A stretch of DNA of 21,932 bases, from positions 1 to 21,932 of the IMG/VR virus record IMGVR_UViG_3300027733_000227; one strand, written 5' to 3'. Position numbers and translations under genes: made by a program. Of this stretch, positions 5,886 through 21,272 are shown piece by piece. The DNA comes from a virus. The notes below the pieces were generated by a model. That model did no database searches, was not told the origin of the DNA, and was given only the letters and a program-made list of their open reading frames with translations. Numbering within the stretch: the first letter of the stretch is position 1; every line of letters begins with the position of its first letter.

Positions 5886-6002
5886 GCATCAGTAGGGTTG
5901 ATTTAAAAATAACAAGTCTCCCCGAAGCAAAGCTCGCCTCAACGAGCAATAAAAAACCCCCGATTTCTCGGGGGTTTTTAGTTTATATTATTTTATAATA
6001 TA
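5886..6002. other. 117-bp convergent intergenic gap
   Basis: This is the gap between the end of the left plus-strand block and the end of the minus-strand block. Besides the terminator hairpin at 5952-5979 there is an AT-rich tail next to the minus gene. I see no open frame or other signal. Confidence 0.75.
5952..5979. terminator. Perfect bidirectional Rho-independent terminator
   Basis: A 12-bp perfect stem (AAAAACCCCCGA at 5952-5963 with TCGGGGGTTTTT at 5968-5979) closes a 4-nt loop, TTTC. The plus strand ends in a T-run. The minus strand also ends in a T-run, because the left side is an A-run. It lies exactly between converging genes ending at 5885 (plus) and 6003 (minus), so it should stop both units. 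Confidence 0.93.
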
Positions 6003-7202
6003 TTATGTATTGCCAGCAGTAGTCAAACCCGCTGTTACTCCAGCGAATATTCCATTCAGCGCGTCTGTGGGACTGCCAATTTGGGTGGTAAATACGAGAT
6101 CAACTTTTTTATTATCTCCAATTGAACTGGAGAAATTTTCGCTTACAATTTTGCACCCTCTTACAGTGTAAGCAATTTTACTAGTTTTTGTAGAGTCTGC
6201 AAATTGGAATGTTAAAGTTTTGGACGCGTCGGAGACGAGAAGGTTCATAAGATTTGCACCCGCTGATCCTCCTGCGTCGTCTTTAAGATCAGCAACATTT
6301 GCACTTACATTAACTGTGACCTCAAGAGGGAAATCAACAACCTTTGTGTAGCCAAACGCATTTCCAATTCGCTGTAATGTGGTTCGTTTAATTGGAACTT
6401 CAATAGAGAATGATTGAATATGAGCTGCTGTGTTCGAAGCGTTATCAGCGGTTGGCAAGTCAGTCAATAAGCCTTCTGAAAGGCTCATATATATATCGCC
6501 TGGGCGTAATGCAGAAAGCCCTAAGCTTCCACTTACGGGGGCTGGTAGTTGGAATTGCAAATTACCAGTTGCGTTATTTTCTGTTGTGGTTCCGGGTACA
6601 GTTCCAGAGGAACCAGATACAACATTAATATTTGAACCTTCTACAGTCACAGAAACTGTTGGAATTGAACCTACAGAAGCTTCTACTGAGTAATTTGTTA
6701 CGTAACCGTTTCCAATTCCGATTGTATTTGAATTTGCAGAAATGTTAGCTAGTGTCGCTCCGTTCGCATCTACGCCTTCGGGAGAAGTGAAAATAAAGTA
6801 ATTTCTTCCTGAAACGGTATGACCACCGCCAACTGGGATTCCGTTAACAGTTGTTGCGGTATCCGCGTTAATTAATCCGCTCAAAAAGACGTTGTTGCTC
6901 ACGCTAGCTAATCCTGTGGAAGTAGCTCCAGTAACAAACCCAAGTAGTCTTTCATTTGTTCCGTCGTGAAGGTAGTATGTAAAATCAAGATTTACAGTAG
7001 GAGCTTCAAGAATAATAGCATCTATACGAGCAAGGTTGCCGAATTGATTGATATCTTGACGAGATACATTAAAGCCGTAACTGGCTGATTGAACACGGTG
7101 AAGTTGACCGATGTCCGTGGCTGCGTGCGTGCCAGTTGGATTTACAGTTCCAGTAGTGACAAACAAAGCGTCTGATTGGTAAATTACTCTATTACGTGGC
7201 AT
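6003..7202 (-). CDS. Major tail tube-like protein
   Basis: The 399-residue product starts M-P-R-N-R-V-I-Y. It is beta-rich, with no membrane or enzyme motifs. Its pattern recurs in the 590-aa and 259-aa proteins encoded at 19500 and 17732: V-N-L-D-F-T-Y-Y-L, then I-G-I-G-N-G-Y-V-T-N-Y, then P-G-D-I-Y-M, S-F-S-I-E-V-P-I-(K/E)-R and a final S-S-S-I-G-D segment. As the last gene of a neck-type block, it is the best candidate for the subunit that polymerises into the tail tube. It is preceded by a 51-bp gap and has no clear Shine-Dalgarno sequence; the gap shares a 9-mer with the upstream region of the block's first gene. Tube assignment is inference from paralogy, order and composition. Confidence 0.68.
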   Translation of the reverse strand: MPRNRVIYQSDALFVTTGTVNPTGTHAATDIGQLHRVQSASYGFNVSRQDINQFGNLARIDAIILEAPTVNLDFTYYLHDGTNERLLGFVTGATSTGLASVSNNVFLSGLINADTATTVNGIPVGGGHTVSGRNYFIFTSPEGVDANGATLANISANSNTIGIGNGYVTNYSVEASVGSIPTVSVTVEGSNINVVSGSSGTVPGTTTENNATGNLQFQLPAPVSGSLGLSALRPGDIYMSLSEGLLTDLPTADNASNTAAHIQSFSIEVPIKRTTLQRIGNAFGYTKVVDFPLEVTVNVSANVADLKDDAGGSAGANLMNLLVSDASKTLTFQFADSTKTSKIAYTVRGCKIVSENFSSSIGDNKKVDLVFTTQIGSPTDALNGIFAGVTAGLTTAGNT

Positions 7203-7253
7203 AGTTTAAAGGGTTTGAAATACTTTACATTTTTTTATCTATAAATGGAATAA
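7203..7253 (-). promoter_or_regulatory. Intergenic leader of the tail tube-like gene with shared TGTAAAGTA element
   Basis: On the minus strand, this 51-bp AT-rich gap reads TATAGA (7243-7238), an A-rich 8-nt spacer and TGTAAAGTA (7229-7221). The gap before the first minus gene has TATAGA (9149-9144), 3 nt and the same TGTAAAGTA (9140-9132). An extra promoter or processing site in front of the highly expressed tube gene would make sense. The role is inferred. Confidence 0.3.
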
Positions 7254-8084
7254 TCAAGATCTTGGGTATCTGTATTTAATAATGTCAAAATCCATAAATC
7301 CAATATATGATCTAGACGTTCCTTTTGAGTCTTTGAACTTTGAAACCGCAACATCATCAATGAAAAGTTCTGCCGAAGAACCATTTACATTTTCAAATGT
7401 GTATGGGGGCGTTTTAACATCGCCAAATTCATTCAAGGGATATTGCGTAAAATCTTTTTGTTTAAACGTTCTATTCTTTGAATCGGCGAATAAAGAAAGA
7501 GCGCCGTCTAAGCTGTAAGGGTCATTAGCGAAAACGACGCACTTCATATAAACTTTACTCTCGTCTTCTCCGCCGAATGCAAACGGCGTATTAATTAATG
7601 ATTCTGAATTGATGTAAATTGCTGGCAACGCGTTGTCGTATGGCTCCAAGTAAGTTGAACTGTTCCAAGGAATCTTTTCTTTTGATTTTAAACTATGATC
7701 TAAAATCAAGTCTTCTTCGTTTTCGTTTGATAAATAAATATTAAAATCTTTTACCGCAAAGCTTCCAGTTACAATTGCTCCTGTTGCTATTCCAGAATAA
7801 ACTGCTCTTCCGTTAATGAAATCAATATGTTTATTGTTTCCTCTTGGGGAGAAAACGGAGTTAACGTAAACTCCACTTGGAACGTTAGCGCCAGTTATGG
7901 TTGAGTCGTAAACCCACTGTTTGTAAGCGCTACCGAAAACCTTATACCCGTTTGGTAATCTAGCGTCAGAATAATAATGCAACTTTCCAGTTTCATTGCT
8001 GTAAGCTTCGCCTTTGTCTAAAAGGTGATGATCTAACCATAACGCAAATGAAGTTGCGACATTATGTAGGTATTGAGGTTTCAT
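7254..8084 (-). CDS. Neck/tail structural protein of unknown function
   Basis: The 276-residue product starts M-K-P-Q-Y-L-H-N-V. Its first 23 bases overlap the end of the preceding minus gene. The N-terminus (A-T-S-F-A-L-W-L-D-H-H-L-L) looks helical, and the rest is beta-rich with many Tyr, Asn and Asp. No catalytic motif or membrane segment is seen. It lies between a tail-completion candidate and the tube protein, where tailed phages often encode a tail terminator, but it is larger than typical terminator proteins. I do not recognise the family. Confidence 0.6.
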   Translation of the reverse strand: MKPQYLHNVATSFALWLDHHLLDKGEAYSNETGKLHYYSDARLPNGYKVFGSAYKQWVYDSTITGANVPSGVYVNSVFSPRGNNKHIDFINGRAVYSGIATGAIVTGSFAVKDFNIYLSNENEEDLILDHSLKSKEKIPWNSSTYLEPYDNALPAIYINSESLINTPFAFGGEDESKVYMKCVVFANDPYSLDGALSLFADSKNRTFKQKDFTQYPLNEFGDVKTPPYTFENVNGSSAELFIDDVAVSKFKDSKGTSRSYIGFMDFDIIKYRYPRS

Positions 8085-8670
8085 TTAATTGTGAGAATTT
8101 TTGTTCGTACTTTGCCAAAATCATGCTGATATATTTTATATTTTTAAATCTATTTTTTTTTCTTAATTTCGAGCTGGTTTGAACAGCAGTTCCAGATCGC
8201 GAGCTATCGAGTTGGCCATCTTCACTGTAAAGGTATTGGCCGATACCAGATATTCCAGTTTCGATACCTTTAGCCCAAGAACGGCCTGGCGCCCAAGGCA
8301 TTGGACTCGCAGCCCAAATATCTTCTTTCGCAGGCATGAAAATTAACCAATTAGCGCCGCCTTCTATTAAGCCATTGAATCTAATAGTGGTTTTGTTAAA
8401 TTCATCTAATACTGCTTCTACGGGGTCTTCTCCAGCAGGAAACCCAATATAAGAAAACAAATTTCCATTTCCGCCTAATGCACCGCTAATATTTTCAGCT
8501 GTTGGGCCATTTTTTATTTCTACTGTAACAGGGTGATTTAAAAACTCCATTATCATTTGCCGCTTTACAGATTCGAAGTTTTTTATTACTATCTTTTCGA
8601 ATTGTGGCCTAAGCGCGCTAGCGCTATCCGCGCCTATTTTTTTTAAAATATCTCGTGGAATTTTCGCCAT
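8062..8670 (-). CDS. Tail-completion / neck protein candidate (HK97 gp10-type position)
   Basis: The 202-residue product begins M-A-K-I-P-R-D-I-L-K-K and has an amphipathic helical N-terminal part, a Gly-rich middle (S-G-A-L-G-G-N-G-N-L-F), a Trp-rich segment (W-A-P-G-R-S-W-A-K-G-I-E) and a strongly basic stretch near residue 170 (K-L-R-K-K-N-R-F-K). Its start lies one base beyond the preceding gene's stop, and its end overlaps the next gene by 23 nt, so the genes are translationally linked. Position directly after the joining-protein candidate fits a gp10-like neck or tail-completion role. The evidence is mostly order and size; the family is not recognised with certainty. Confidence 0.55.
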   Translation of the reverse strand: MAKIPRDILKKIGADSASALRPQFEKIVIKNFESVKRQMIMEFLNHPVTVEIKNGPTAENISGALGGNGNLFSYIGFPAGEDPVEAVLDEFNKTTIRFNGLIEGGANWLIFMPAKEDIWAASPMPWAPGRSWAKGIETGISGIGQYLYSEDGQLDSSRSGTAVQTSSKLRKKNRFKNIKYISMILAKYEQKFSQLNETSIPT

Positions 8671-8671
8671 G

Positions 8672-9127
8672 TTATTCGTTTATCGGAGTTAAAACAAATG
8701 AATAATATCTTGGGCCAAAGATTCCATTTGGCTTATAGTCGGAAACTATATTGTATCTTCTATTATCGAATTCAATCTTTTTAGCTTCTTTTAAGTAAGG
8801 AAAAGCGTCGGTGCCAACTTTAATTTTAACAGTTCCTTCTGGGTACATCATTCTTTGCTGATCAACTGCTGCGGGATAAATGCCTTTTCGATTTGAAACG
8901 TAACTGATTTTAGCTTTAAAAGTGTAAGATTTGCTAATATAAGTTGGATTGTTCGCTGCTGAATTTGTATCTGCTCCATAAAAGCCATTGTAAGTTGAGG
9001 AAGTTGTAGCAACAACTATTTCTGGATTCATGATAACTGTGATGTAACGAGCGAACGTTTCGAAAACATCGTCGAAAATGCCGTTAATGTAATCCTTCTG
9101 AGAAGATGAAATATACGAAGTCGCCAT
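8672..9127 (-). CDS. Head-tail joining (head closure) protein candidate
   Basis: The 151-residue product is the first gene of the minus block. It begins M-A-T-S-Y-I-S-S-S-Q-K-D-Y. The C-terminal half shows alternating strands ending in K-I-E-F-D-N-R-R-Y-N-I-V-S-D-Y and Y-Y-S-F-V-L-T-P, a pattern reminiscent of small beta-barrel head-closure proteins, where a late strand reads 'xYxI' before a final strand. Size and place before tail-completion and tube candidates agree. No enzyme motif is seen. The upstream region holds an exact TATAAT but no good -35 box. The assignment is tentative. Confidence 0.5.
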   Translation of the reverse strand: MATSYISSSQKDYINGIFDDVFETFARYITVIMNPEIVVATTSSTYNGFYGADTNSAANNPTYISKSYTFKAKISYVSNRKGIYPAAVDQQRMMYPEGTVKIKVGTDAFPYLKEAKKIEFDNRRYNIVSDYKPNGIFGPRYYSFVLTPINE

Positions 9128-9179
9128 ATTTTACTTTACACTTTCTATAGTTAAATTATTATATAGTAAGGTAAAAGGT
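9128..9179. promoter_or_regulatory. Divergent promoter region between minus and plus late blocks
   Basis: The 52-bp AT-rich gap separates two divergent starts (9127 minus, 9180 plus). For the plus unit, TTTACA (9135-9140), 16 bp and TATTAT (9157-9162) form a sigma70-like pair with one mismatch in each box. For the minus unit there is an exact TATAAT (9163 down to 9158) without a recognisable -35. The two -10 boxes overlap, so the directions may compete. An AAGG 8 nt before the plus start (9168-9171) can serve as Shine-Dalgarno. Confidence 0.5.
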
Positions 9180-9476
9180 ATGACTGGCAAGGAATATTTT
9201 AACGATAGGGTAAAGGTAAACACCTCTGATCTATTCAAGAGGATGCTTATCATTTTGGAAGACATTAAGCATGAGCATGATAGGCAATTCGCTCTTTTAT
9301 ATTCCTCCGCTCCAGATTCATTTAAACCAGTTGTGAAACAGGCCCATTACCTAGACGAAGAAAAAATGACGCTTTATAGAAAGCGCGTTTTAGACATGGG
9401 AAATGAAGCTATCCGAAAGATTGTTTCTGAAATGGATAGCTCAAGAGTAGAATTCCATCACACATTTAAACAATGA
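9180..9476 (+). CDS. Small helical protein, first gene of the tape-measure operon
   Basis: The 98-residue product starts M-T-G-K-E-Y-F-N-D-R and is rich in charged residues and predicted helix throughout, with no membrane segment or known motif. The ATG lies 8 nt after an AAGG. Its stop overlaps the next start as ATGA (4 nt), showing tight coupling. It sits in the region before the tape measure gene where tail assembly chaperones are usually encoded, so an assembly role is possible. I do not recognise the family. Confidence 0.62.
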   Translation: MTGKEYFNDRVKVNTSDLFKRMLIILEDIKHEHDRQFALLYSSAPDSFKPVVKQAHYLDEEKMTLYRKRVLDMGNEAIRKIVSEMDSSRVEFHHTFKQ

Positions 9477-10216
9477 AAGAACTATTTAGCTACACAATCA
9501 AGGTAAACAAGGAAGTTGAAAAGACCGAGACTAAAGAGGAGAACGGTCAAACAATAACCGTTACGCAAAAGATCAAAGAGGACGTGCCTGTAAAGATCAT
9601 TATCAAGCAACCTTCTCGTAAAAATCTTGAGGACGCTGAACTGCAATTTAGCATCGAAATGTCGAACTGTATCAAGAAGGGTATTTTGACAAAGGGCATG
9701 TTAACTAAAAAATATACTGATACTGGCGGCGTTTTATCAGAAGACGACGCTAAAGAACTGGTAGCTCTTTATAATAAAATTACTCAATTAGAGAATGACA
9801 TACTTCGATTAAATTCGAAAAATGAACTTGATAGAGAAGCTGAAGCTAAAGTGATTAGCGAAATCACAACTCTTAGAATGAGAATGGTTCAAGTAGAATC
9901 AAGTTACAGATCGCTGTTCGACAATACGGCTGATAACATTGCGCAAAATAATGTTATTCGCTGGTTCTGTTTGCACATGGCTCATTCTCAATTTATCCCT
10001 GACGGAAATATCGAGCCAATGTTTAAAGGCTCAACAACAGAACAGAAGCTCGAAAGCTTGCATCAAATGGACGAAGATGAAAATGAAATTTACAAAAAGG
10101 CTTATCGTAAATTAGCAACGTTTATGTCTTTCTGGTTCTTTAGTAAAAATGCGAAACATGAAGACTTTAAAAAGCTAGACGATGACATCGAAACAGGAAA
10201 GTTTGACCAGCAGTAA
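9473..10216 (+). CDS. Tail assembly chaperone candidate (upstream partner)
   Basis: The 247-residue product starts M-K-E-L-F-S-Y-T-I-K-V-N. The N-terminal 60 residues look like a beta-rich charged domain, followed by long helices (a coiled-coil-like segment about residues 100-150) and an acidic C-terminus ending G-K-F-D-Q-Q. In long-tailed phages, the two genes before the tape measure usually encode tail assembly chaperones, often joined by programmed frameshifting. This gene overlaps the next by 35 nt in the +1-shifted frame. Chaperone identity is inferred from position, not from a recognised domain. Confidence 0.55.
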   Translation: MKELFSYTIKVNKEVEKTETKEENGQTITVTQKIKEDVPVKIIIKQPSRKNLEDAELQFSIEMSNCIKKGILTKGMLTKKYTDTGGVLSEDDAKELVALYNKITQLENDILRLNSKNELDREAEAKVISEITTLRMRMVQVESSYRSLFDNTADNIAQNNVIRWFCLHMAHSQFIPDGNIEPMFKGSTTEQKLESLHQMDEDENEIYKKAYRKLATFMSFWFFSKNAKHEDFKKLDDDIETGKFDQQ

Positions 10217-11183
10217 ACTATTCTTAACGTTCAACGAAATTGTAAAGGGCTACTCCAAGAAGAAATTCAAGGGTAGCTCTATTTTTATTAAGCACCTCGG
10301 GGTAAATGAAAAAGCTTTTTTCGATTATCGTTATCAAGAGTATCTAGCATATGCTTTATCTTTAGGTATTCTTTCAGAAGACGATGCTTTAAAAAAAGCG
10401 TCTGAAGAAGGTTTTTGGTCTCAAAAAGAAGAAGATGAAATAACTGATTTAAACAAGTACATTGATCGGTTAATTTTAACTAAAAAGAATTTTATTCGTA
10501 AGCTCGAAATAGAAGCTATCAATAAGCAGATTGACGAAGAGCGCCAAAAGTTAGTTAAAAAAATCTCCGATAGAAAAGACATTATCGGCAAAACGGCAGA
10601 AGAGTATGCAAGTAACAGATCGAGCGATTACATTATATACGAATCTCTATTTAAAGACGAAAATTTTAAAGAGCGCGTGTTTTCTGAGTCTGAATTTGAA
10701 GAAATGACTTATGAAGATTTAGTTGAGTATATTTTGTTTTTTAATGAATACATGAACGAGTTTAAAGATTACAACTTGCAAAAAATTTCATTGTTGGACT
10801 TTTTTCATCCGTATTATCTTGTTTTAGATCAGCCTATGCAGTTTTGGGGCAAGCCAATGGTTCAGCTTACTGATTTTCAAGTTAGAGTCACTATTTACGG
10901 AAAGATATTTAAAAATATATTTGAGACTACAGAAAATATTCCAGACGAAATAAGGCAAAATCCAGACAAGCTTTTCGAATATACAGACAGGTCAAAAGCT
11001 AAAAAGAACTTTGAAGGTAAGCAAAAGAACAAAGATAAAGCTAGCGGAGAAGCTGTTTTCGGAGCTACAAAAGAAGAAATGGCAGAAATGAAAACGCCGG
11101 GATCAAAAACTATCAACGAGGTGATGAAAGGAAAGAAAACGATGACTATGGAAGAGCTTATGAAATTACATGGCGAAGGTTAA
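10182..11183 (+). CDS. Tail assembly chaperone candidate (downstream partner)
   Basis: The 333-residue product starts M-T-S-K-Q-E-S-L. An in-frame TAG at 10176-10178 means the frame opens only one codon before this ATG, so it is either initiated here by coupling or reached by a frameshift. Features: G-I-L-S-E-D-D-A-L-K-K-A near residue 67, a very charged helical middle, an aromatic patch (F-F-H-P-Y-Y about residue 207) and a Lys-rich tail with T-M-T-M-E-E-L-M-K-L-H. It is followed by a 33-nt gap and the tape measure gene. Position supports an assembly chaperone or tape-measure-binding protein. There is no enzymatic motif. Confidence 0.52.
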   Translation: MTSKQESLTSSKLFLTFNEIVKGYSKKKFKGSSIFIKHLGVNEKAFFDYRYQEYLAYALSLGILSEDDALKKASEEGFWSQKEEDEITDLNKYIDRLILTKKNFIRKLEIEAINKQIDEERQKLVKKISDRKDIIGKTAEEYASNRSSDYIIYESLFKDENFKERVFSESEFEEMTYEDLVEYILFFNEYMNEFKDYNLQKISLLDFFHPYYLVLDQPMQFWGKPMVQLTDFQVRVTIYGKIFKNIFETTENIPDEIRQNPDKLFEYTDRSKAKKNFEGKQKNKDKASGEAVFGATKEEMAEMKTPGSKTINEVMKGKKTMTMEELMKLHGEG

Positions 11184-11212
11184 CTTTTGAGTGTAAATAT
11201 CTCAAAAGGTTA
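11181..11212 (+). promoter_or_regulatory. Hairpin overlapping the tape measure Shine-Dalgarno
   Basis: TAAC (11181-11184) plus TTTTGAG (11185-11191) can pair with CTCAAAA (11201-11207) plus GTTA (11209-11212), with one bulged G and a 9-nt loop. The right arm contains AAAAGG (11204-11209), the only Shine-Dalgarno-like run 7 nt before the ATG at 11217. The left arm starts with the stop codon of the upstream gene. Ribosomes finishing that gene would open the stem, so the element could couple and limit tape measure translation. Confidence 0.5.
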
Positions 11213-11216
11213 AAGG

Positions 11217-14200
11217 ATGGCACAAGGTATATCAATTCCAGTAGTTCAGTCTGGCTTAGAAGCCTCTATTCAACAAGGAGCTAGAAATGTTGGCACAATC
11301 AACATCAACGCTTCTGTTGATCCTTCTGCGTTTAAAAATTTAGCGCAGCCTCTCGGGCGCGTGAGCGGCCTCGCGACCGAGTTTGAAAAGTCAATTGCAG
11401 CTTCGAATGCTCGCGTTTTAGCTTTCGGAGCTTCGGTGGGAATTATTAATGGCGTTCAAAACGCTTTCTCGACTCTAGTTCAAACGGGAATCGAAGTGCA
11501 AAAAACACTTGCTGACATTGGCGCTATTAGCGGAAAGAGTGGGCAAGAATTATCAAAGTTTGGAGATTCGCTTTTTGAGATTGGAAAAACGACTGGCCAA
11601 ACATTTCAAACAGCTTCTCAAGCTGCTCTTGAATTTTCGCGTCAAGGCTTAACTGTAGAGCAAACTTTAAAAAGAACGAGCGACGCTTTAACTTTAACAA
11701 GGTTCACAACGTTAAGCGCCTCAGAAGCGGTTGACGTTTTAACTGCCGCAGCAAATTCATTTAGCGAAACTGGAATTACAACCGCTCAGATTATTAATAA
11801 GCTAGTTGCGGTTGACACTAAATTTGCTGTTTCGGCAGAAGACCTTGCTAAAGGTCTCGCGCGTGCGGGCTCAATTGCTCAAGAGGTCGGAGTTAATTTC
11901 GACCAATTAAATGCTGCGGTTACAGTTGCTCAAGAAAGAACAACGCGTGGAGGCGCTGTTATCGGCAATGCTCTTAAAACAATTTTTACTAGAATAAGAA
12001 GCGACGAAACTGTTCAAGCTTTAAGAAATGTTGGAGTTGAATCTTTGGACGCTCAAGGTCAGCTAAAGGGGGCTATTCCTTTGCTAGAAGAGCTTTCGAA
12101 AAAAATGCAGGGTTTGTCAGGAGGAGAAAGAATTCAAATTCTTGAGGCAGTTGCTAGTAAGTACAACATTAACATTTTGTCTGCTTTGCTTAATGATTTA
12201 GGCGACGCTAATAGTAAATTTGGACAAGCTGTGCAGGTGTCAGCTGGAGCTGGCAACCAAGCTTACGAAAGACAAATAGAGCTTAATAAAACTCTTGCAG
12301 CCCAAATTAATAACGCAACAGTTTCGGCAACTCAATTGTTTAATAAACTATCTGAAATTGGAGTTACAGAAAATTTAAATAGTTTATTATCATTCGTAAA
12401 CGATTTACTTAGTGGCTTTAATAAGCTTTTGGACTCGGGAAGTGTTGGCGGCGACATAGCTAAGGGATTAATCAAAGGTATTTCTGATGTATTTTTTACT
12501 GTTGGTTTACCTATACTAGCTGCAATATTTGCAAAGCTTACAGCTGATATCGCGAAATTTGGCGTTGAATCTTTAAAAACAATTTTAGGAATTAATCAGC
12601 AAGTTAGAGAGCGCCAAGCTCTTGAACAAGCAGTTGTCAATACGCTCATTAGAGATCAAGAAGTAATGGCGAGCATTTTGGCTTTGAGCGGGAACCGCGC
12701 AAAGCAAGAAGAGTATTTGTTGGGCGTTTACAACCGTCAATTAACCGCTTTGCAGCAAGTTCAAAATATCGCATCGTCAGTAACTCCCGCATTAATGGCG
12801 GGCGGATTAAGCGCAACAAGCGGGCAAGTCAAAAAACGTGGTGCTGGAGGTTATCTTCCATCTCAAGAAGCTGCGGATGTTCGTCGAGGAGTTGGCGGGG
12901 CAAGCGCATCTTCTAAAGTAGTTTCTATTCCTAATTTTGCTTTTGGCGGCGGCAAACGCGGCACAATGATTGCAAATACGAGCGAATACGTTGTGCCGAA
13001 TTTTGCTAATGGAGGTTCAGCCATCTTTAATCAAGACATGGCAAGAGCTTACGGGTTGCCAGCGGGCGCGAAAAAGATTTCAGCAGCAGGGGGCTACGTT
13101 CCAAATTTCAATCGTTACGTTTACGATGCTGACAGAATTGAGCCTGATAAAAATTCTTTATTAAAAGCTATATTAGCGTCGAGAGCTAAAAAGAATCTTA
13201 TAGTTGGTCCCGCTGGATCTGGCAAATCAACATACGGCGCTTCGCTTGGTTCTTTCATAACTAACCCTAATCAGTTGGCCGACGCTACTGAAGTTGATAT
13301 TCTTTCTGGCGCAGCGAGAACAAAAGACGGCGGAATGTCCAAAAACTTTCAGCAAATTGCAGACGCTGTAAATTTATCAGGCGGAAAAATTTCATATTTA
13401 TATACGGGCAATATGGATATTCTTTCTCGGAGAAGAGGAAGAATTGATACTGGCCCGCAAGAAGGTGATTTAAGAAGCGAAAAACAAATTGCAGGATCAA
13501 TGTATGCTCCTCTTAATCAATTTGATTTTATTTCAAAAGTAAAAAGTAGCGCCAAAAATTTTGAAATGATTCGCGGGGCAGGGGGCTATATTCCTAATTT
13601 TGCAGATCAATATACAATTAGAGCAGGAGCAATGTCTGCAATTGGAAAATCAGGAATTAAGTTTCCTGAAGAGTGGAAAAGTACCGGAGGCTCAAACACA
13701 AAAAAGGATCAAGCAAATGCAGCGTTAGCGGAAGTAAATGCAGAAAGGTTAGCGTCTGGACAAAAACAATTATCGTTTAGTGATTTATATACTTCTCAAC
13801 CGCTGGCATCGAAAAAAGATGTAATTAAAAATGCAAATCAATATGCAGAAGCGCGTGGCGTCGCAATGCTTTTGCCAAATATAGAAGAAGGTATAGCTGC
13901 AAATAACATAGGTAAAGCTGGTGTAGTTCCAAGTACAAAAAATCGGACAATAGCTCCATATGTAAAATTTAAAGCTTTTGGATTGACTAGCGCCTCAGCT
14001 ACAAAACAAAAAGATGTTCCGAAAATACAAGAGAGAATTTCAAATGCTATTGCGAATGAAGCTTATGATATCGTTAATCAATTTGATCCAATAGCTGGGA
14101 AGCAGCCTTTCGATGAAGTTGGATTTAAAAAATTCTTTTTAAGTAAAGGTGGTGCTGCTGGGGCTGTTGGCGCAGCTGCTGGATCAACTTTTGAAGCAGC

Positions 14201-17200
14201 TGTAGATTATGCATTTAATCCAAGCGAAGCAGAATCTGGTGCAAAAGGCGGAACCACTTTCGATGTCAATAAAATTAGTCCAACATTAAGAAAAGTTTTT
14301 GGAAATGTGCCAGATGATATAATTAGAGGAGATTATAAAATAAGTTCAGCGCAAACGCAAAAATTTGCAGATCAAATTATATTAAATGGACTTTATGATT
14401 TAAAAGACACAGCTGCTTCAGGATATATCCCAAATTTTGCTAAAGGTAGTCCATTAGAAGACGCCATTCAACGCGAAATGGCTGCTGGGTTAGATCCGAG
14501 CCAAATCCGAGTAACAAAAGATGGAAAATTAAAAAACTCACAAAATCCAAATGGATTTGCGGTTATTAATACTAGAGATGAGCCTAATGGAAAGATACCA
14601 AATTTTGCTAGCGGAGGAAGACCGGATGGTCCAGCAGACCTCAGGAGAGCAGAAAGAAGAGCGGCAGAGCGGCAGGCAGAGCAAGACACGGAAGATATTA
14701 GATTAGCTACGCTATCAGCTGGTGGATCTCTACCTACGCAAGCAGTTAGCGGATCATCAGTTAGATATGAAGCTGGAGCCTCACTTTCCGCCTCCTTTCA
14801 AGATTTAGATGATAAAACAAAACAGGCGTCGTATGGTCTTGATAAATTATTTTATGCGACCGGAGCACTAATGACGATAAATGCGACTTTAGAGCAGACA
14901 TTTAAAAATACAAATGGAGGAGTAAAACTTTTTGGAGATGCGGTTTCAATGGTCTCTAAAGCCGCTCAAGCAGCCGCAACCGGAGCTTTGTTAGGTGGTC
15001 AAGTAAAAGAGATGACAAAAGGTATGGTTGGTGCAGGAGGTGCAAGAGGACTTATCGGAGCGGTAGGGGCAGCGTCTCCGCAAATTGCAATCGCTACAGC
15101 AATAGGGGGCGCGCTAATCGATTCGATAGAAAGCTCGTGGATGAGTTCTATAGAAGGCGAGTCCGCAAAAGCTGCTGGACAAAAACAAGCAGAAGTTTTT
15201 ACTAAAACTGGTGATAAACAAACTATAGAAGATAGAGGGAGGGTTCTTCGTAGTAGAATTTTCAAGCAAGGAGGGGGAGACGACCAAACGAATGCAGAAT
15301 ATGACGCTATCAGCAAAAAACTCAAAGAAATCAACGAAGAGGAAAATAAGAGAAAAAAAACTGCCGATGAAATAGCCAAAAAAACACAAGAAGAAGCCCA
15401 AGAAATTAATAAAAGAGTTGCGTTAACCACTAAATTGAATGAAATTTCATTAGCCTTTAACGAAGGCGAAAATAAAGCTTTTATAGCAAGAGCGGTGGCT
15501 CAAGGTAACGCTTTGAAAAATCAAAACAAGTTAACAGAATTACAGAAATTCGCAAGCGACGAGTCGATAAGAGAATTAGAATTTCAAGGAAGATTAAGAA
15601 CATCAAAATCGCAGGGTATTCAAGACTTGATAAAAGAACTGTCTCAAAAAGGAGCTTTAGCTACTGTAGACGAACAGGCGTTAAACGTTCTTCTTGACAA
15701 AGCTAGAGCTTCTGGAGATTTTCTTTCAATAGAGAAGGAAGTTGCAGCTCTTGCAATAAGAGCTTCCGCCGGATCTCAAACTGCGATATCAAACGCCAAA
15801 GCAAAAAATACTATTGAGCGGAATAACTTAACGACACAGGAAGAGGCTAGAAAATTTCTAGCAGAACAGGCTAAATATACCGATATACAAAAAGCCGCAT
15901 TACAAAGTGTTTTTAATATACAAACAAAAATAGCAGGGATGGATCGTGAACGAATCAACGCCATAAAACAGGCCGCAGCTGAAATGAAAAATCTTAAAGC
16001 AGATTCTGAAGTTTCAGCGATAGAAGCGGACCAATCTGGTCTCCCTCAAACAAGAGCACGAAAAGCGGCGTTGGCTACCGCAAAATTCAGTCAATTCGAA
16101 ACTTTTGAACGCAGCAAAATCCCAGAGAAAGCTACGGCAGATCGAAATATTATTCTAGAAAAATATAGAAATACAGCGGAAACGGCGCTTAGTGCAATTA
16201 CTAATCTATCAGTAGAAGATAGAAATTCTATAGCATTGAAAATTGCTCAGGCAAAAAGTATCGAAGATGTGACTGAGGCGTATAGGGCGGCTCAGATATC
16301 AGCGACAAAGACTATAGAGCAGCAAGCATTGCTTGGTATGGCTAATAATATGGTGAAGCAAGCTGAAGATGATGCGGCTGACGCTCTAGACAGGAGAAGC
16401 ACTGCGGAAGGCTATTTGATCGCCCAGATGGAAAATAAAATAACGCTCCAGAGAATAGCTGCTGAGCAGTCTGCAAAAGAAGCTGAAAGTCCATTTCAAA
16501 CAGGGATGAAAGCAGCTACGGATCAACTTATAGTTGAAGCTGATATTTTTCAAAACAAATTAGGAGGCGAAACAGTAACTTTATTTAGAGATGGTTTAAG
16601 AGATGCGATGGGTGCGGCGATTTCTCAAACAGGTGACCTTGGAGCCGCACTGCAAAATGTAGCTATGGGCTTTTTGAAAACTATGCAGAATGCATTTTTA
16701 CAAAATGCGGCAAACAACATAACAATTGCAATGGGGGCAAAGTTTGCTAAAGGTGGCGTTGTAAGTGGAGGTAGCGGATATCGCGATGATGTTCCCGCGA
16801 TGCTCACTGGCGGCGAATTCGTAATGAGAAAATCAGCAGTGCAAAAATACGGCGCTTCTAATCTTGAAAGAATGAATAGTGGAGGAATGTTCGTTCCCGG
16901 AACTCGTGGAGGAGGAGCGATTTCTGGAGAAAATGATTTGAGAGCTTTCGCGAATCAATCAACAACAAGCGGAGCAACGGACGTTTTAAAAGGCAGCAGA
17001 AGTTCCGCATTCATTAATCTTGAAGATGAAAGCCAAAAATTATCTAGGTACGCTTTGTTAGGAGACGACACGATTAATCAAGAAGTTCGCGGCGCTAAAA
17101 TGCAAGCTTTTGATATATTAAAAAATAAATCTGATTTTGAAAAGCAACAGAAAGAGGCGGAAAAGCAACAAAAGAAAGCTTTGATGAGACAAATGATAGG

Positions 17201-17732
17201 AACTGTTGCGGGGGCTGCGCTAAGTTATGGGGCGGGGAAATTGAATCCACAAGTAGGCGCAGGACAAGGAAAAAGTATTCTGGATGCCTCGGGTAAACCT
17301 AGCTTAATGATGTCTCCTGTATATGTGAAGGGAGCTTACGGAGGCATGATTCGCCGCTACGCTTCAGGTGGCCCAACAGACGATATCCAAGCGATGCTAA
17401 TGAGCGGCGAATACGTTATGAATCGCGGCGCTTCTCGCAAGTACGGCAAGCAGTTTCTCGACTCAATGAATCAAGGCCGCGCTCCAAGATTCGCGGATGG
17501 CGGCGAAACTACACCTTCCGCCCCAACTACAACAACAGAGTCTAACGTTAAAGGGATGGGTGATGTTAACATTAATATTAATGTTACTGGCCAAACCTCG
17601 CAAACAGAAACTCAAGGAAATTCAAGTCAGGGCGGCATAGATTACAAGAAAATGTCAGAGAAGATCAAGATGGTAGTAATGGAAACCTTAAATGAAGAAA
17701 AGCGTTTAGGAGGATCTCTTAGAACTAGATAA
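11217..17732 (+). CDS. Tape measure protein (TP901-type) with embedded enzyme-like modules
   Basis: At 2171 residues this is by far the largest gene. Residues about 85-330 match the TP901/PhageMin_Tail core: many Ala/Ser/Thr helices, with T-R-G-G-A-V-I-G-N-A-L-K-T-I-F-T-R near residue 243. Hydrophobic stretches at about 425-441 and 1265-1310 suit channel formation during DNA ejection. Residues 543-1131 carry repeated P-N-F-A motifs (569-575, 589-597, 625-631, 789-796, 1069-1075, 1127-1131) that bracket three modules, including a Walker A at 664-672. Residues about 1360-1830 are long charged helices. Two C-terminal copies of D-D-(V/I)-x-A-M-L-x-x-G-E-(F/Y)-V-M lie at 1857-1870 and 2055-2068. 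Start: ATG at 11217, 7 nt after AAAAGG. The stop overlaps the next start as TAATG. The tape measure role is very secure; the roles of the inserted modules are not known. Confidence 0.95.
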   Translation: MAQGISIPVVQSGLEASIQQGARNVGTININASVDPSAFKNLAQPLGRVSGLATEFEKSIAASNARVLAFGASVGIINGVQNAFSTLVQTGIEVQKTLADIGAISGKSGQELSKFGDSLFEIGKTTGQTFQTASQAALEFSRQGLTVEQTLKRTSDALTLTRFTTLSASEAVDVLTAAANSFSETGITTAQIINKLVAVDTKFAVSAEDLAKGLARAGSIAQEVGVNFDQLNAAVTVAQERTTRGGAVIGNALKTIFTRIRSDETVQALRNVGVESLDAQGQLKGAIPLLEELSKKMQGLSGGERIQILEAVASKYNINILSALLNDLGDANSKFGQAVQVSAGAGNQAYERQIELNKTLAAQINNATVSATQLFNKLSEIGVTENLNSLLSFVNDLLSGFNKLLDSGSVGGDIAKGLIKGISDVFFTVGLPILAAIFAKLTADIAKFGVESLKTILGINQQVRERQALEQAVVNTLIRDQEVMASILALSGNRAKQEEYLLGVYNRQLTALQQVQNIASSVTPALMAGGLSATSGQVKKRGAGGYLPSQEAADVRRGVGGASASSKVVSIPNFAFGGGKRGTMIANTSEYVVPNFANGGSAIFNQDMARAYGLPAGAKKISAAGGYVPNFNRYVYDADRIEPDKNSLLKAILASRAKKNLIVGPAGSGKSTYGASLGSFITNPNQLADATEVDILSGAARTKDGGMSKNFQQIADAVNLSGGKISYLYTGNMDILSRRRGRIDTGPQEGDLRSEKQIAGSMYAPLNQFDFISKVKSSAKNFEMIRGAGGYIPNFADQYTIRAGAMSAIGKSGIKFPEEWKSTGGSNTKKDQANAALAEVNAERLASGQKQLSFSDLYTSQPLASKKDVIKNANQYAEARGVAMLLPNIEEGIAANNIGKAGVVPSTKNRTIAPYVKFKAFGLTSASATKQKDVPKIQERISNAIANEAYDIVNQFDPIAGKQPFDEVGFKKFFLSKGGAAGAVGAAAGSTFEAAVDYAFNPSEAESGAKGGTTFDVNKISPTLRKVFGNVPDDIIRGDYKISSAQTQKFADQIILNGLYDLKDTAASGYIPNFAKGSPLEDAIQREMAAGLDPSQIRVTKDGKLKNSQNPNGFAVINTRDEPNGKIPNFASGGRPDGPADLRRAERRAAERQAEQDTEDIRLATLSAGGSLPTQAVSGSSVRYEAGASLSASFQDLDDKTKQASYGLDKLFYATGALMTINATLEQTFKNTNGGVKLFGDAVSMVSKAAQAAATGALLGGQVKEMTKGMVGAGGARGLIGAVGAASPQIAIATAIGGALIDSIESSWMSSIEGESAKAAGQKQAEVFTKTGDKQTIEDRGRVLRSRIFKQGGGDDQTNAEYDAISKKLKEINEEENKRKKTADEIAKKTQEEAQEINKRVALTTKLNEISLAFNEGENKAFIARAVAQGNALKNQNKLTELQKFASDESIRELEFQGRLRTSKSQGIQDLIKELSQKGALATVDEQALNVLLDKARASGDFLSIEKEVAALAIRASAGSQTAISNAKAKNTIERNNLTTQEEARKFLAEQAKYTDIQKAALQSVFNIQTKIAGMDRERINAIKQAAAEMKNLKADSEVSAIEADQSGLPQTRARKAALATAKFSQFETFERSKIPEKATADRNIILEKYRNTAETALSAITNLSVEDRNSIALKIAQAKSIEDVTEAYRAAQISATKTIEQQALLGMANNMVKQAEDDAADALDRRSTAEGYLIAQMENKITLQRIAAEQSAKEAESPFQTGMKAATDQLIVEADIFQNKLGGETVTLFRDGLRDAMGAAISQTGDLGAALQNVAMGFLKTMQNAFLQNAANNITIAMGAKFAKGGVVSGGSGYRDDVPAMLTGGEFVMRKSAVQKYGASNLERMNSGGMFVPGTRGGGAISGENDLRAFANQSTTSGATDVLKGSRSSAFINLEDESQKLSRYALLGDDTINQEVRGAKMQAFDILKNKSDFEKQQKEAEKQQKKALMRQMIGTVAGAALSYGAGKLNPQVGAGQGKSILDASGKPSLMMSPVYVKGAYGGMIRRYASGGPTDDIQAMLMSGEYVMNRGASRKYGKQFLDSMNQGRAPRFADGGETTPSAPTTTTESNVKGMGDVNININVTGQTSQTETQGNSSQGGIDYKKMSEKIKMVVMETLNEEKRLGGSLRTR
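13110..13574 (+). other. Embedded module A: P-loop (kinase/zeta-toxin-like) domain in the tape measure
   Basis: Residues 632-786 lie between G-G-Y-V-P-N-F and G-G-Y-I-P-N-F-A. They contain an exact Walker A, G-P-A-G-S-G-K-S-T (residues 664-672, bases 13206-13232), preceded by the hydrophobic strand N-L-I-V. Further on are a second strand-like run, K-I-S-Y-L-Y, and an arginine cluster, S-R-R-R-G-R, which could be a phosphotransferase lid. The N-terminus begins R-Y-V-Y-D-A-D-R. Size and order suit a small P-loop kinase such as the zeta-toxin group. P-loop binding is strongly suggested; activity and substrate are unknown. Confidence 0.65.
13605..14414 (+). other. Embedded module B: possible PD-(D/E)XK nuclease-like domain in the tape measure
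   Basis: Residues 797-1066 lie between two G-Y-I-P-N-F-A motifs. The N-terminal half is helical and Ala-rich. The C-terminal half has G-S-T-F-E (E993), T-T-F-D-V (D1016) and G-D-Y-K-I (D1039, K1041). This order and spacing resemble the helix-one Glu, the strand Asp and the (D/E)xK of PD-(D/E)XK nucleases. Nuclease fold is a hypothesis from these motifs; the first ~180 residues are unassigned. Confidence 0.4.
14442..14591 (+). other. Embedded module C: short conserved-looking segment in the tape measure
   Basis: Residues 1076-1125, between G-Y-I-P-N-F-A and K-I-P-N-F-A, include P-L-E-D-A-I-Q-R-E, S-Q-I-R-V and N-T-R-D-E-P. At about 50 residues it is too small for a typical enzyme. It may be a linker domain or the remnant of a cassette. 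No function can be assigned. Confidence 0.4.
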
Positions 17733-18511
17733 TGGCAAAATTATCAACAGCTAATTATGATGCTGAAGTTTTTCTCAGTGGCTATAAGATTTTTGGAGTC
17801 ACTGACGTTAATTTCGGCTACTCCTTGCCCGTTGATCATTTAAATGTAATCGGGTATAATAAATTTCGCACGTTCACTTCTGGCCCGCCCCAATCATCTT
17901 TAAGCATACAAAAGTATCTTTCGCCAAATGATTTGATTTTAAATTTCACGGGAACAACAGCAATTAGCGGCGGATTGTTTTATAATTCTTCTTCTACAAA
18001 TTTTGGCTTCACTTCTGGTTATTTAAATTCATTTTCCGTATCTTGCGCAGTTGGGAATTTCCCAAGTTTAAGCGCTGACTTTTCACTGTATGGCAACGTT
18101 GGAAGTGGATTAATTTCAACAACAGTGAACCAAACTGGCACCTTAAAGGTCGTAAGGCCAAAAGATATTTTAATTGAATGTGACGGCACAGGCACTAACA
18201 GAATAGAGTCTTTTACATACAACGTAGAGTGCAATAGACAAGCGTTTTACCACCCAACGGGCAGCTCGCCAATGGAAGTTGTTACTTCGCGGCCTTACAA
18301 AGTAACTGCTCAATTTTCTTTGGGAATCGACGATTACGAATCGAAAAGACTTTTTGATTATATTATTGATTCAAACAAAAGAAATATTAGTATAACTATA
18401 GGCTCATTAGCAACATTCACAATGTCGAATATGGAATTGATAGGAGAAACAATAAATTCTTCAGCAACTGATGACGCGATAATGACTCTCAATTATCAAG
18501 GATTTTTATAA
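17732..18511 (+). CDS. Tail tube-like / distal tail protein (short paralogue)
   Basis: The 259-residue product starts M-A-K-L-S-T-A-N-Y-D-A-E-V-F-L. It is beta-rich and shares a pattern with the minus-strand tube-like protein and the 590-aa protein: a strand L-I-L-N-F, then G-Y-L-N-S-F-S-V-S-C-A-V-G-N-F-P-S-L, then P-K-D-I-L-I and an S-F-T-Y-N-V-E-C-N-R strand. It is the first gene after the tape measure (TAATG overlap), where siphophages usually place a distal tail or tail-tip tube-fold protein. It lacks the large insertions of its two relatives, so it may be the minimal form. Confidence 0.65.
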   Translation: MAKLSTANYDAEVFLSGYKIFGVTDVNFGYSLPVDHLNVIGYNKFRTFTSGPPQSSLSIQKYLSPNDLILNFTGTTAISGGLFYNSSSTNFGFTSGYLNSFSVSCAVGNFPSLSADFSLYGNVGSGLISTTVNQTGTLKVVRPKDILIECDGTGTNRIESFTYNVECNRQAFYHPTGSSPMEVVTSRPYKVTAQFSLGIDDYESKRLFDYIIDSNKRNISITIGSLATFTMSNMELIGETINSSATDDAIMTLNYQGFL

Positions 18512-19500
18512 TGTCATTTTTCTACGATAGAGATCAAAATGTTACAGGAACGATTCCCGCGTCGTTCACATTTACTCCTTCGTATGGAATGCAAGTTTCT
18601 TTTAGTTCAGAATTGTCTAGTTTTGAAGCGATAGATAATTATATCTACACTATGCCAAAAGGCTTAAATCATTTGCAAATGCAAATATCAATGCCGTTTG
18701 AAAATCGCAAACAAGAACAAGCTAGGCAAATTCTTGGGTTTTTTGAAGGTTTGCAAGGAACTGGGTCGTTTTTATACACAGATGCGGCTCAAATATACAA
18801 ACCGTTTAACTGCTTTGTAAATACAATCGATAACACTTACAATGAAAATGATTTGCACAACGTTAATGTTAGCGCTAGCACCGATCAAATTTCAACATTG
18901 CTAAATTGGAATAATTCTTTAATAACTGGAAGTAATATAAGGGGCGATTGGGTTTCTGGCGCGGGCGGGCAATTTACAAGTTATTCAAAATATGACGTTG
19001 CAAGATACACTGGAAATGCAACTTACGCAAGTAACACTGGCAATTTATATGATTCTTTTTATTACTGCACTGGAGCTTTCACGTGCGATAACTCTAGCGC
19101 AATCGGAGTGGTGAATACTATACCCAACAGTCAAAAGTGGACGCGCGAATTTGAATTTCAACCCACTTATTCGTCGCAAATCTCTAAAGAAACTGCAGTA
19201 ATAAAAAGCGAATTACCTTATTCTTTTACAAGGCGAACTAATTTTGGCCTGCACTCTAATACTCTAAAAAACTTTAAATTAGATTTTAAAGGAATATCTG
19301 ACGCTGAAGCGAGATGCATTCTTCACTTTTTGATTGCAAGGCAAGGGTATAGAAAATTTCAGTACAAGTTTCCCAAGATATACAATCAATATAAATATTT
19401 CTATGCGCCGCAATGGGAGCATACCTTTGTTTATAAAAACGTAAACGACATATCAGTTACGTTATCGGAAGACCCGCTCGGGGCAAGGAGAATTTACTAA
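18511..19500 (+). CDS. Minor tail protein, lambda gpM-like, with duplicated domain
   Basis: The 329-residue product starts M-S-F-F-Y-D-R-D. Residues about 24-122 and 215-320 look like two copies of one domain: a strand-rich start, A-R-Q-I-L-G-F-F with G-S-F-L-Y-T in the first, and A-R-C-I-L-H-F-L with R-K-F-Q-Y-K-F in the second, each ending in a V-N-V or I-S-V-T-L strand. The second half, with a Trp before a final strand ending S-E-D, resembles the gpM-type minor tail family. The linker (about 125-210) is rich in Ser, Asn and Tyr. It starts by TAATG overlap after a tube-like gene and ends the same way, so it is part of the distal tail operon. Family assignment is moderate. Confidence 0.6.
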   Translation: MSFFYDRDQNVTGTIPASFTFTPSYGMQVSFSSELSSFEAIDNYIYTMPKGLNHLQMQISMPFENRKQEQARQILGFFEGLQGTGSFLYTDAAQIYKPFNCFVNTIDNTYNENDLHNVNVSASTDQISTLLNWNNSLITGSNIRGDWVSGAGGQFTSYSKYDVARYTGNATYASNTGNLYDSFYYCTGAFTCDNSSAIGVVNTIPNSQKWTREFEFQPTYSSQISKETAVIKSELPYSFTRRTNFGLHSNTLKNFKLDFKGISDAEARCILHFLIARQGYRKFQYKFPKIYNQYKYFYAPQWEHTFVYKNVNDISVTLSEDPLGARRIY

Positions 19501-21272
19501 TGGCTAGACAATATATATCTTACGGAATGGAAGCTATGTTTGTTGGGCCAAGTGGAGCTATGCGAGCGCCGAGTGATGCATCTGAGGTTGCTAAATTAGA
19601 TTTCATTCAATCTTATGATTTTTCTTTCGATGTTGAACGTGCCGCTTTAAAACAAATTGGAAGCCCCTATCTTGCAACTAGACAAACTCAACTTGCGCCA
19701 GATGTTAATTTAAATTTACAATATTATTTAAATAGAGGCTGGAATGAAAAGTTTATAGGAATGGGCGTTGGCGTTACAACTGACGGCTACAACAATCCAT
19801 TCTCAACTATTTTCTCATCCAATCAAGATAGGAATTTTTATGTTGTAATTGCTAAAGATAATGGCAAAGATTTAAATGCGGATACAAGTTTGAATGAGCA
19901 TAATGTTCTCGGAATCGGAAATGTTTATCTAACTAACTATGAGCTTAGCGTTGGTTTGAATAGTTTAGCTACTGTTAATCTTTCTTTCGTTGGGGCTAAT
20001 GCGGAAATTTCTCAGGTGAGTTCTGCGACTTTTGAAAATCCAGCGTTATTCGTAACTGGATCTGGCACAGAAGTAATTACTAATCAATCGATTGGAATTT
20101 TGGATGCTTCGAGAAGTTCAATATACATGACAGGTTATAGCGGGCTTTTTGCTGGCGGATGCCCGCATGGTGGATGTCAAATAACCGCAACAGCGGAAGC
20201 GTCTAATGCTTTAAAATTAGGTTTTGATTTTGATAATTTTCAATCGCTTTCTATTTCAGTTCCTATAGAAAGAAAAGCTCTTTATGGTTTTGGCAACAAT
20301 CACCCATTTCATAGAAAAGTGCAGAAGCCAATTGTTGGCACTTTAAGCATAGATTCCTTAGTGGATTCTTTTAGCGCGGAAAATTTAATGACAACATTTA
20401 ATCAGGAAGATGTTTCCATTAGTGGATATTTCTTTGATATAGTTTTTTCAAACTACGCAAAAGTTAAAAAGTTTGGAGTGAAAGTTAATAACGCAAGATT
20501 AGATTCATATTCTATAGGGTCAAAAATTGGAGATCGTTCAGTGATTTCTACTTCTTGGTCTTTTGAGATTAACGAATCAACTGGAATTTTAATGTCAGGG
20601 TCTTACGCGCCTACAGCTACAACGGCTGGATTTATTACCGAAGCTATTGGTCGTGATGCGTTGACTCAAGGTACAGCGGCTCCAATATTTGGATCTTCAG
20701 CGGCCACTTATAATACATCAAATGATAACGCCCCATCTAACGCTGGCTGGACATTAATTATTTCAGAGTCTCAAGATGATAATTATTTTGCTCTAAATAC
20801 TCTTCATAATATTTATATATATGGCGCTAGCTACAATACGATTTATCCCGGTAGTAATACTTATATAACTATGTCAGGTGGAAGCACCACATATTATTCT
20901 CTTAATTTTACTAATCCATTATTACCAGCTATTCAATTAGGATCAGCGGATAATAGTTGGCAAAGAGTTTGGATCAAAACCGAAAGCGACAAAACTAGAA
21001 TAAGGTATGAAGGAACTAGTGCCACAAGCGGTACACCTGGTAATCCAAATATTGTTTATGAAATAACGTTTTTTAAAGCAGATGCTTTTTTTCAATATAT
21101 AGAAGTTAGATTTGGCAGTCATTTCCGAACCGCAGGAGTTTTTGGCGTACAAAATGGAATTGGCTCATATGTCAACGGAGGTACAATAACTCAAAATCAA
21201 AGCTATGTTATCAGAACGGACATTAATGGAAATAACCCAACAATACTCGCTGGATATTACGTCTCAACATGA
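19500..21272 (+). CDS. Tail tube-like protein with C-terminal adhesion-type domain
   Basis: The 590-residue product starts M-A-R-Q-Y-I-S-Y-G-M. Residues about 1-360 follow the same plan as the minus-strand tube-like protein (V-N-L-N-L-Q-Y-Y-L, L-G-I-G-N-V-Y-L-T-N-Y, S-S-I-Y-M-T-G, S-L-S-I-S-V-P-I-E-R, S-Y-S-I-G-S). A cysteine pair C-P-H-G-G-C lies in an insertion near residue 221. The last ~210 residues are a different beta-rich domain (W-Q-R-V-W-I-K, R-I-R-Y-E-G, S-G-T-P-G-N-P-N-I-V-Y-E, Y-I-E-V-R-F-G) that looks like a lectin-like or adhesion module. It may decorate the distal tail and bind the cell surface. TAATG overlap at the start, ATGA overlap at the end. Confidence 0.62.
   Translation: MARQYISYGMEAMFVGPSGAMRAPSDASEVAKLDFIQSYDFSFDVERAALKQIGSPYLATRQTQLAPDVNLNLQYYLNRGWNEKFIGMGVGVTTDGYNNPFSTIFSSNQDRNFYVVIAKDNGKDLNADTSLNEHNVLGIGNVYLTNYELSVGLNSLATVNLSFVGANAEISQVSSATFENPALFVTGSGTEVITNQSIGILDASRSSIYMTGYSGLFAGGCPHGGCQITATAEASNALKLGFDFDNFQSLSISVPIERKALYGFGNNHPFHRKVQKPIVGTLSIDSLVDSFSAENLMTTFNQEDVSISGYFFDIVFSNYAKVKKFGVKVNNARLDSYSIGSKIGDRSVISTSWSFEINESTGILMSGSYAPTATTAGFITEAIGRDALTQGTAAPIFGSSAATYNTSNDNAPSNAGWTLIISESQDDNYFALNTLHNIYIYGASYNTIYPGSNTYITMSGGSTTYYSLNFTNPLLPAIQLGSADNSWQRVWIKTESDKTRIRYEGTSATSGTPGNPNIVYEITFFKADAFFQYIEVRFGSHFRTAGVFGVQNGIGSYVNGGTITQNQSYVIRTDINGNNPTILAGYYVST

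Follow-up and report, generated by a model that had tools for sequence, protein, structure and literature searches.

The window analysed here, a linear virus fragment of 21.9 kb (IMG/VR record IMGVR_UViG_3300027733_000227, positions 1 to 21,932), encodes a tape measure protein (TMP) in which enzyme-like domains, hereafter called cassettes, lie in line between copies of a short recurring motif, PNFA. At the level of sequence, comparison with related viral contigs establishes the TMP identity of the carrier, its modularity, the exchange of cassettes at the motif, the conservation of active sites and purifying selection. We propose, with a probability of roughly 0.65, that the cassettes form a polymorphic effector bay which is carried in siphovirus tails and acts in the host; that the cassettes are present in the virion, enter the host and are active there, and that the motif serves as hinge, docking or cutting site, would all be parts of this proposal. 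We slightly favour the broader view that in a widespread class of uncultured siphoviruses the TMP serves as a multi-slot effector magazine, with many kinds of enzyme loaded by way of a border motif that works at protein level and delivered ahead of the genome, and with a rapidly turned over nuclease slot; the tail would then be a polymorphic injection system in its own right.

Border motifs and cassettes

The reading of the gene as a TP901-type tape measure, given in an initial annotation made from the letters of the window, was borne out by a match to PF10145 (PhageMin_Tail, the TP901-type TMP family) at amino acids (aa) 121-311 with E=7.8e-26. The parts of the gene are listed below; L005 is a near-identical phage used for comparison.

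11217..17732, + strand: TMP gene, carrier of the cassette bay; 2171 aa, matched by PF10145 and PHROG tape measure families
11577..12149, + strand: TMP N-terminal domain PF10145, aa 121-311
12930..13112, + strand: N-side border module with motifs 1-3 (PNFA at aa 572, PNFA at aa 594, GYVPNFN at aa 626-632)
13113..13583, + strand: cassette 1, P-loop kinase-like domain, aa 633-789 (AF2, Foldseek, Walker A)
13584..13604, + strand: motif 4, GYIPNFA, aa 790-796, exchange edge
13605..14420, + strand: cassette 2, PD-(D/E)xK-like nuclease, aa 797-1068, with putative active site E993, D1016, D1039, K1041
14421..14441, + strand: motif 5, GYIPNFA, aa 1069-1075, exchange edge; L005 homology restarts at 14416
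14442..14588, + strand: C-side border module, a small conserved domain (NPNGFAVINTRDEPNG), aa 1076-1124
14589..14609, + strand: motif 6, GKIPNFA, aa 1125-1131, exchange edge; L005 homology stops at 14611
14610..16582, + strand: Lys/Glu-rich scaffold region after the bay; differs between the window and L005
16583..17732, + strand: conserved TMP C-terminal part with GEFV/GEYV repeats; 93.9% identical to L005 from 16583

Six PNF copies were located in the window TMP (aa 572, 594, 629, 793, 1072, 1128), five as PNFA and one as PNFN, with 0.014 copies of PNFA expected from composition. The initial annotation had described recurring motifs with segments of about 155, 270 and 50 aa between them; these segments were found between motifs 3-4, 4-5 and 5-6, and its coordinates (12843-14609) proved correct, but it had missed the two copies at aa 572 and 594 in the conserved module upstream.

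IMG/VR viral contigs were scanned with back-translated GYIPNFA, GFIPNFA and GYVPNFA, yielding at least 120 matches each, and at least 250 open reading frames (ORFs) with two or more motifs after removal of contained duplicates. Among the matches listed, to which the counts of copies, segments, clusters and cluster members below also refer, 867 motif copies gave the extended consensus A-[AS]-x-G-[YF]-[IV]-P-N-F-A; [AS] two residues before G was present in 89% of copies, though outside the search pattern. A GYIPNFA scan of bacterial and archaeal genomes (257 Gb) returned 107 stretches, mostly single copies, and only four loci with two or more motifs in one ORF; in these scans the border motif is a viral, multi-copy element. 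Where testable, the motif-bearing ORFs are nearly all TMPs, as judged by an iterated profile, which detected the window TMP N-terminal domain in 167 of 169 listed ORFs with enough upstream sequence, and by PF10145, which was above cut-off in 35/35 related contigs picked across cassette types. Motif spacing was uneven (about 50 to over 400 aa) and, as the initial annotation had anticipated, the segments vary between many unrelated sequence families while the borders stay: the N-side border module is kept among TMPs with differing cassettes, and the C-side border module, present in 179 of the 250 listed ORFs, is retained when the nuclease cassette is swapped.

Cassette 1 holds the exact Walker A (GPAGSGKS, aa 664-671, window 13206-13229) that had been noticed initially, and the Walker A residues were invariant in 17/17 sequences of its family of 21 members. 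Its AF2 model (mean pLDDT 86) matched adenylate kinases (probability 0.97-0.99) and the zeta toxin 6epi (0.99) in Foldseek, with modest TM-scores of 0.37-0.51; Pfam searches with the window segments alone gave weak AAA matches for cassette 1 and none for cassette 2. Taken as models, these data support a P-loop kinase-like fold. A motif-independent scan with a kinase profile found 20 loci, with the kinase bracketed by two motifs at a nearly fixed distance in 20/20.

Cassette 2 belongs to the largest cluster (166 members). The E...D...DxK pattern reported for it earlier is present at aa 993, 1016 and 1039-1041 and conserved in relatives: in an alignment of 147 sequences the active-site columns read G 146, E 143/D 4, D 146 and (D 92/E 55)xK 147, at a mean column identity of 18% over the nuclease cassette (36-sequence subset). 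In its AF2 model (mean pLDDT 82.7) the E lies in a helix and the DxK in a strand, followed by a helix and a strand. On this near-invariant signature we regard cassette 2 as a putative PD-(D/E)xK nuclease. The best match in a PDB profile search, an insecticidal protein at E=0.003, lacked active-site agreement and was taken as chance.

Across the relatives, 373 inter-motif segments of 100-420 aa fell into 87 phmmer clusters, which is an upper bound on the number of families because profile comparison merges six or seven of the small clusters into the main cluster. Pfam matches in other cassettes included SNase (1.9e-9), GNAT (7.3e-8) and, as a marginal case, ParB_N (0.006). HAD-type residues (DxDxT, T, K, VD) were invariant in six aligned sequences, and HExxH was seen by eye in two cassettes. 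PDB profiles for the HAD-like and protein-kinase-like cassettes and single PDB queries with the zincin-like and ART-like cassettes found nothing; HAD and zincin therefore stay leads drawn from motifs, and we make no claim of protein-kinase or ART domains. One polypeptide combines enzyme-like domains of unrelated predicted activity: a kinase-like and a nuclease-like one in the window, and SNase, GNAT and further types in its relatives. At the extremes of the group, L427 has 10 inter-motif segments with two cassette families each present twice in one TMP, and L169 has a 5143-aa open frame, a very long TMP.

Tape measures are variable and many cassette families have no recognisable relative, as would be the case if the segments were ordinary, fast-evolving TMP linker with enzyme patterns arising by chance. 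We find this scarcely credible: it is refuted by significant matches in Pfam, by an active site that hardly varies and by the abrupt exchange edges described below, and structure prediction gave globular domains (mean pLDDT 83 and 86) and no helical linker.

Exchange at the motifs and selection on the cassettes

From the start of the gene through cassette 1 and up to motif 4, a stretch of 2387 nt, the TMP genes of the window and L005 share 95.9% DNA identity. In cassette 2 their DNA is unrelated; identity returns to 89.8% in the 196 nt between motifs 5 and 6, the Lys/Glu-rich part after motif 6 is replaced by one of similar length, and the C-terminus is alike again; in the shared 13.6 kb (5908-19483), cassette 2 and the Lys/Glu-rich part are the only non-homologous blocks. 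The homology of the window ends at 13603 in L005, 13603 in L117, 13614 in L387 and 13607 in L044, the last three stopping at most about 10 bp from the end of motif 4. Cassettes were also replaced, lost or gained next to well-conserved neighbours in the groups L195/L126, L200/L145/L213 and L408/L004. Among TMP pairs whose N-parts are at least 80% identical (73 pairs), the median identity was 85% for the N-part, 94% for the N-side module, 24% for the nuclease and 82% for the C-side module, making the nuclease slot the most variable. A nuclease-type cassette occurs in 115 of the 147 TMPs with an N-part among the matches listed, commonly with a 56-aa border module directly after it. These alignments document that cassettes are gained, lost and replaced at motif borders between near-identical phages. 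Such domain exchange in close relatives suggests that the cassettes are tail-carried enzymes, delivered to the host with the DNA.

Exchange of this kind could also be produced by selfish homing, with the nuclease cassettes cutting the TMP genes of co-infecting phages and the other domains travelling as passengers. Most TMPs among the matches listed do hold one nuclease-type cassette, and nuclease genes at genetic-exchange boundaries in phages are described in one source (PMC10448857). We nevertheless judge this very unlikely: many cassettes are of other types, the kinase and further cassettes move while the nuclease stays the same, the cassettes are in frame, and no intein-like splicing blocks were noticed and no intein or homing-endonuclease families occurred among the Pfam matches of the window cassettes and cluster representatives, although no dedicated test was made. 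The codons of the motif vary as well, and the motif is therefore kept as protein; nine-base cores were identical in 31% of the pairs within a gene, where pooled codon usage predicts 15%, an excess which leaves room for some DNA-level homogenisation.

Median dN/dS was 0.17 for the kinase cluster, 0.30 for the nuclease cluster and 0.11-0.35 for other clusters, so that, by this measure and the alignments above, cassettes keep their active-site residues and evolve under purifying selection. The cassettes could instead act in envelope passage and not in the cytoplasm, or serve as non-catalytic ligands or decoys, for instance to avoid TMP-binding host proteins, their variability being an escape from recognition. 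SNIPE, a host defence, associates with tape measures, and phages evade it through changes in theirs (PMC13190303). Near-invariant active-site residues speak against this explanation, as do the intracellular substrates of SNase, GNAT and P-loop kinases, and we consider it unlikely.

We reject a trade-off between the lengths of bay and scaffold: across 62 complete TMPs, the motif region ranged from 50 to 1089 aa and did not correlate with the scaffold (N- and C-parts; Spearman 0.04, p=0.74).

Proposed delivery and related systems

Tape measures fill the tail tube and exit ahead of the DNA. The middle of the window TMP is a cassette bay, with domains of ~100-400 aa in line between motif copies. 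In the proposed mechanism, the cassettes would travel inside the tail tube, built into the TMP, and be ejected with it before the phage DNA; in the host they would work as infection begins, as effectors of the nuclease, kinase, acetyltransferase, phosphatase or protease type. The border motif would most likely function at the protein level, as a hinge and a docking or cutting element, and would let a domain join the tape with the length-setting scaffold unchanged. The high variability of the nuclease slot would be expected if it were locked in an arms race with the immunity of hosts or rival phages. A tape measure has been located at the inner membrane during injection (PMC13190303), and TMP-related effectors are loaded in contractile injection systems (CIS; PMC13277306).

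The time of action could differ from that proposed, with cassettes released from the TMP by cleavage inside the infected cell and working late, in host DNA breakdown or anti-defence, rather than after injection. The TMP is made late and the border motif could be a cleavage site; late action would leave the fusion to a tail protein, instead of separate genes, unexplained, and we hold it to be quite unlikely.

Several points weigh against an effector bay delivered by the tail. Carriage and delivery are predictions made from sequence. A folded domain of ~30 kDa is sterically hard to accommodate in the tail lumen, where room may be needed for three TMP copies. Foldseek searches of cassette 2 against PDB and viral models gave no significant match, so that the name nuclease derives from its active site; the modular cargo bay with interchangeable domains put forward in the initial annotation is partly supported, by the modularity and the kinase-like fold and, for the putative nuclease, by its active site. 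The names HAD, zincin and ParB-like are motif-based or marginal (ParB_N, 0.006). Since the Lys/Glu-rich region after motif 6 is exchanged as well, variability is not confined to the bay. Finally, no inhibitor gene varying with the nuclease was found in the 13.6 kb shared by the window and L005, which leaves the survival of the producing cell in the presence of an active nuclease unexplained.

The proposed bay resembles several known systems in part. In polyvalent proteins a single polypeptide, presumably injected together with the DNA, combines several enzyme domains that are unrelated to each other, among them GNAT, ParB-like and metallopeptidase domains that overlap with the cassette types (Iyer et al. 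2017, PMC5512222); the cassettes differ in sitting in a TMP, sharing a border motif and being swapped singly, and PMC5512222 does not mention tape measures. The CIS effectors Sle1 and Tme likewise have a tape-measure-like protein in the tail tube with a variable effector part, but belong to sheathed bacterial nanomachines and vary at the C-terminus (PMC13277306), whereas the window TMP is a phage TMP with several internal slots. The tail sheath family PF04984 was not found in 25 related contigs (at most 203 kb and maybe incomplete; other sheath families were not searched), and these are therefore probably siphoviruses. Polymorphic toxins, including the MuF toxins of temperate phages (PMC5576092), share with the window TMP a constant delivery part and an exchanged enzymatic module. 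The toxin-like logic suggested in the initial annotation holds to that extent; it departs from that scheme in that the modules are internal and multiple (aa 633-1068 of 2171) instead of a single C-terminal toxin, and no immunity gene was found beside them: the shared 13.6 kb of the window and L005 is collinear outside the TMP, although such a gene may lie farther away. On these two grounds we say that the bay works like a polymorphic toxin, not that it is one. The tape measure of mycobacteriophage TM4, as cited in PMC13277306, also has an enzyme domain (a peptidoglycan hydrolase motif) inside a phage TMP; that enzyme acts on the cell wall, whereas the recognisable cassette types have nucleic acids, nucleotides or proteins as substrates, and each slot has many alternatives. 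Antirestriction proteins of the DarA/DdrB type in phage P1 are virion-carried and counter host defence, but are separate head proteins outside the tail ruler (PMC12810830, PMC5512222).

No earlier description of the motif or of such TMP cassettes was found in the open-access literature, and the kinase, the borders and three further bays had no significant tblastn match in 50,697 phage records, so that metagenomes seem to be the only source in which the group is documented. If the proposal is true, the protein that serves as structural ruler is at the same time a carrier of exchangeable payload, part of the variability of TMPs is explained, and the 87 clusters among the matches listed form a catalogue of probable early-infection effectors, most of them outside any named family, from phages for which no cultured member was found. 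It would further connect phage tape measures with polyvalent proteins and with the TMP-derived effectors of contractile injection systems in a way that can be tested.

Remaining features of the tape measure protein and its neighbourhood

12471..12527, + strand: transmembrane-like hydrophobic segment of the TMP, aa 419-437, ahead of the bay (hydropathy)
9473-10216 and 10182-11183, + strand: overlapping gene pair upstream of the TMP, in a position like that of tail assembly chaperones

By hydropathy, a hydrophobic segment lies at most 300 aa before the bay in 80 of 96 related TMPs, and such segments are rare within the bay (0.06 vs 0.87 per 1000 aa). A bay between two membrane segments is not claimed, as only 40/96 TMPs have a segment on both sides. 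The repeats in the TMP C-terminus (AMLTGGEFVMRK, AMLMSGEYVMNR, FADGG; ~aa 1842-1900 and 2041-2095) look by eye like the border module (TMIANTSEYVVPNFANGG, aa 576-605); this likeness may hint at the origin of the border motif.

The genes of the lambda-type tail assembly chaperones G/GT overlap in different frames. The two genes directly upstream of the TMP also overlap in different frames, and a +1 or -2 programmed frameshift near 10190-10210 is possible from the sequence; neither gene had a family match, and the chaperone-like reading comes from position and overlap only. The proteins at 6003-7202 (-) and 19500-21272 (+) have N-termini that are alike by eye, on opposite strands, and 17732-18511 gave a weak match to a tail tube family; there are possibly several tail-tube-like paralogues. 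At the start of the window, 1-4095 encodes a repetitive, fibre-like protein with many VGIGTTSPSYKLDVAG-like repeats, and 4100-5023 a repetitive protein with KAIFGYG...ITNLVSNTG repeats.

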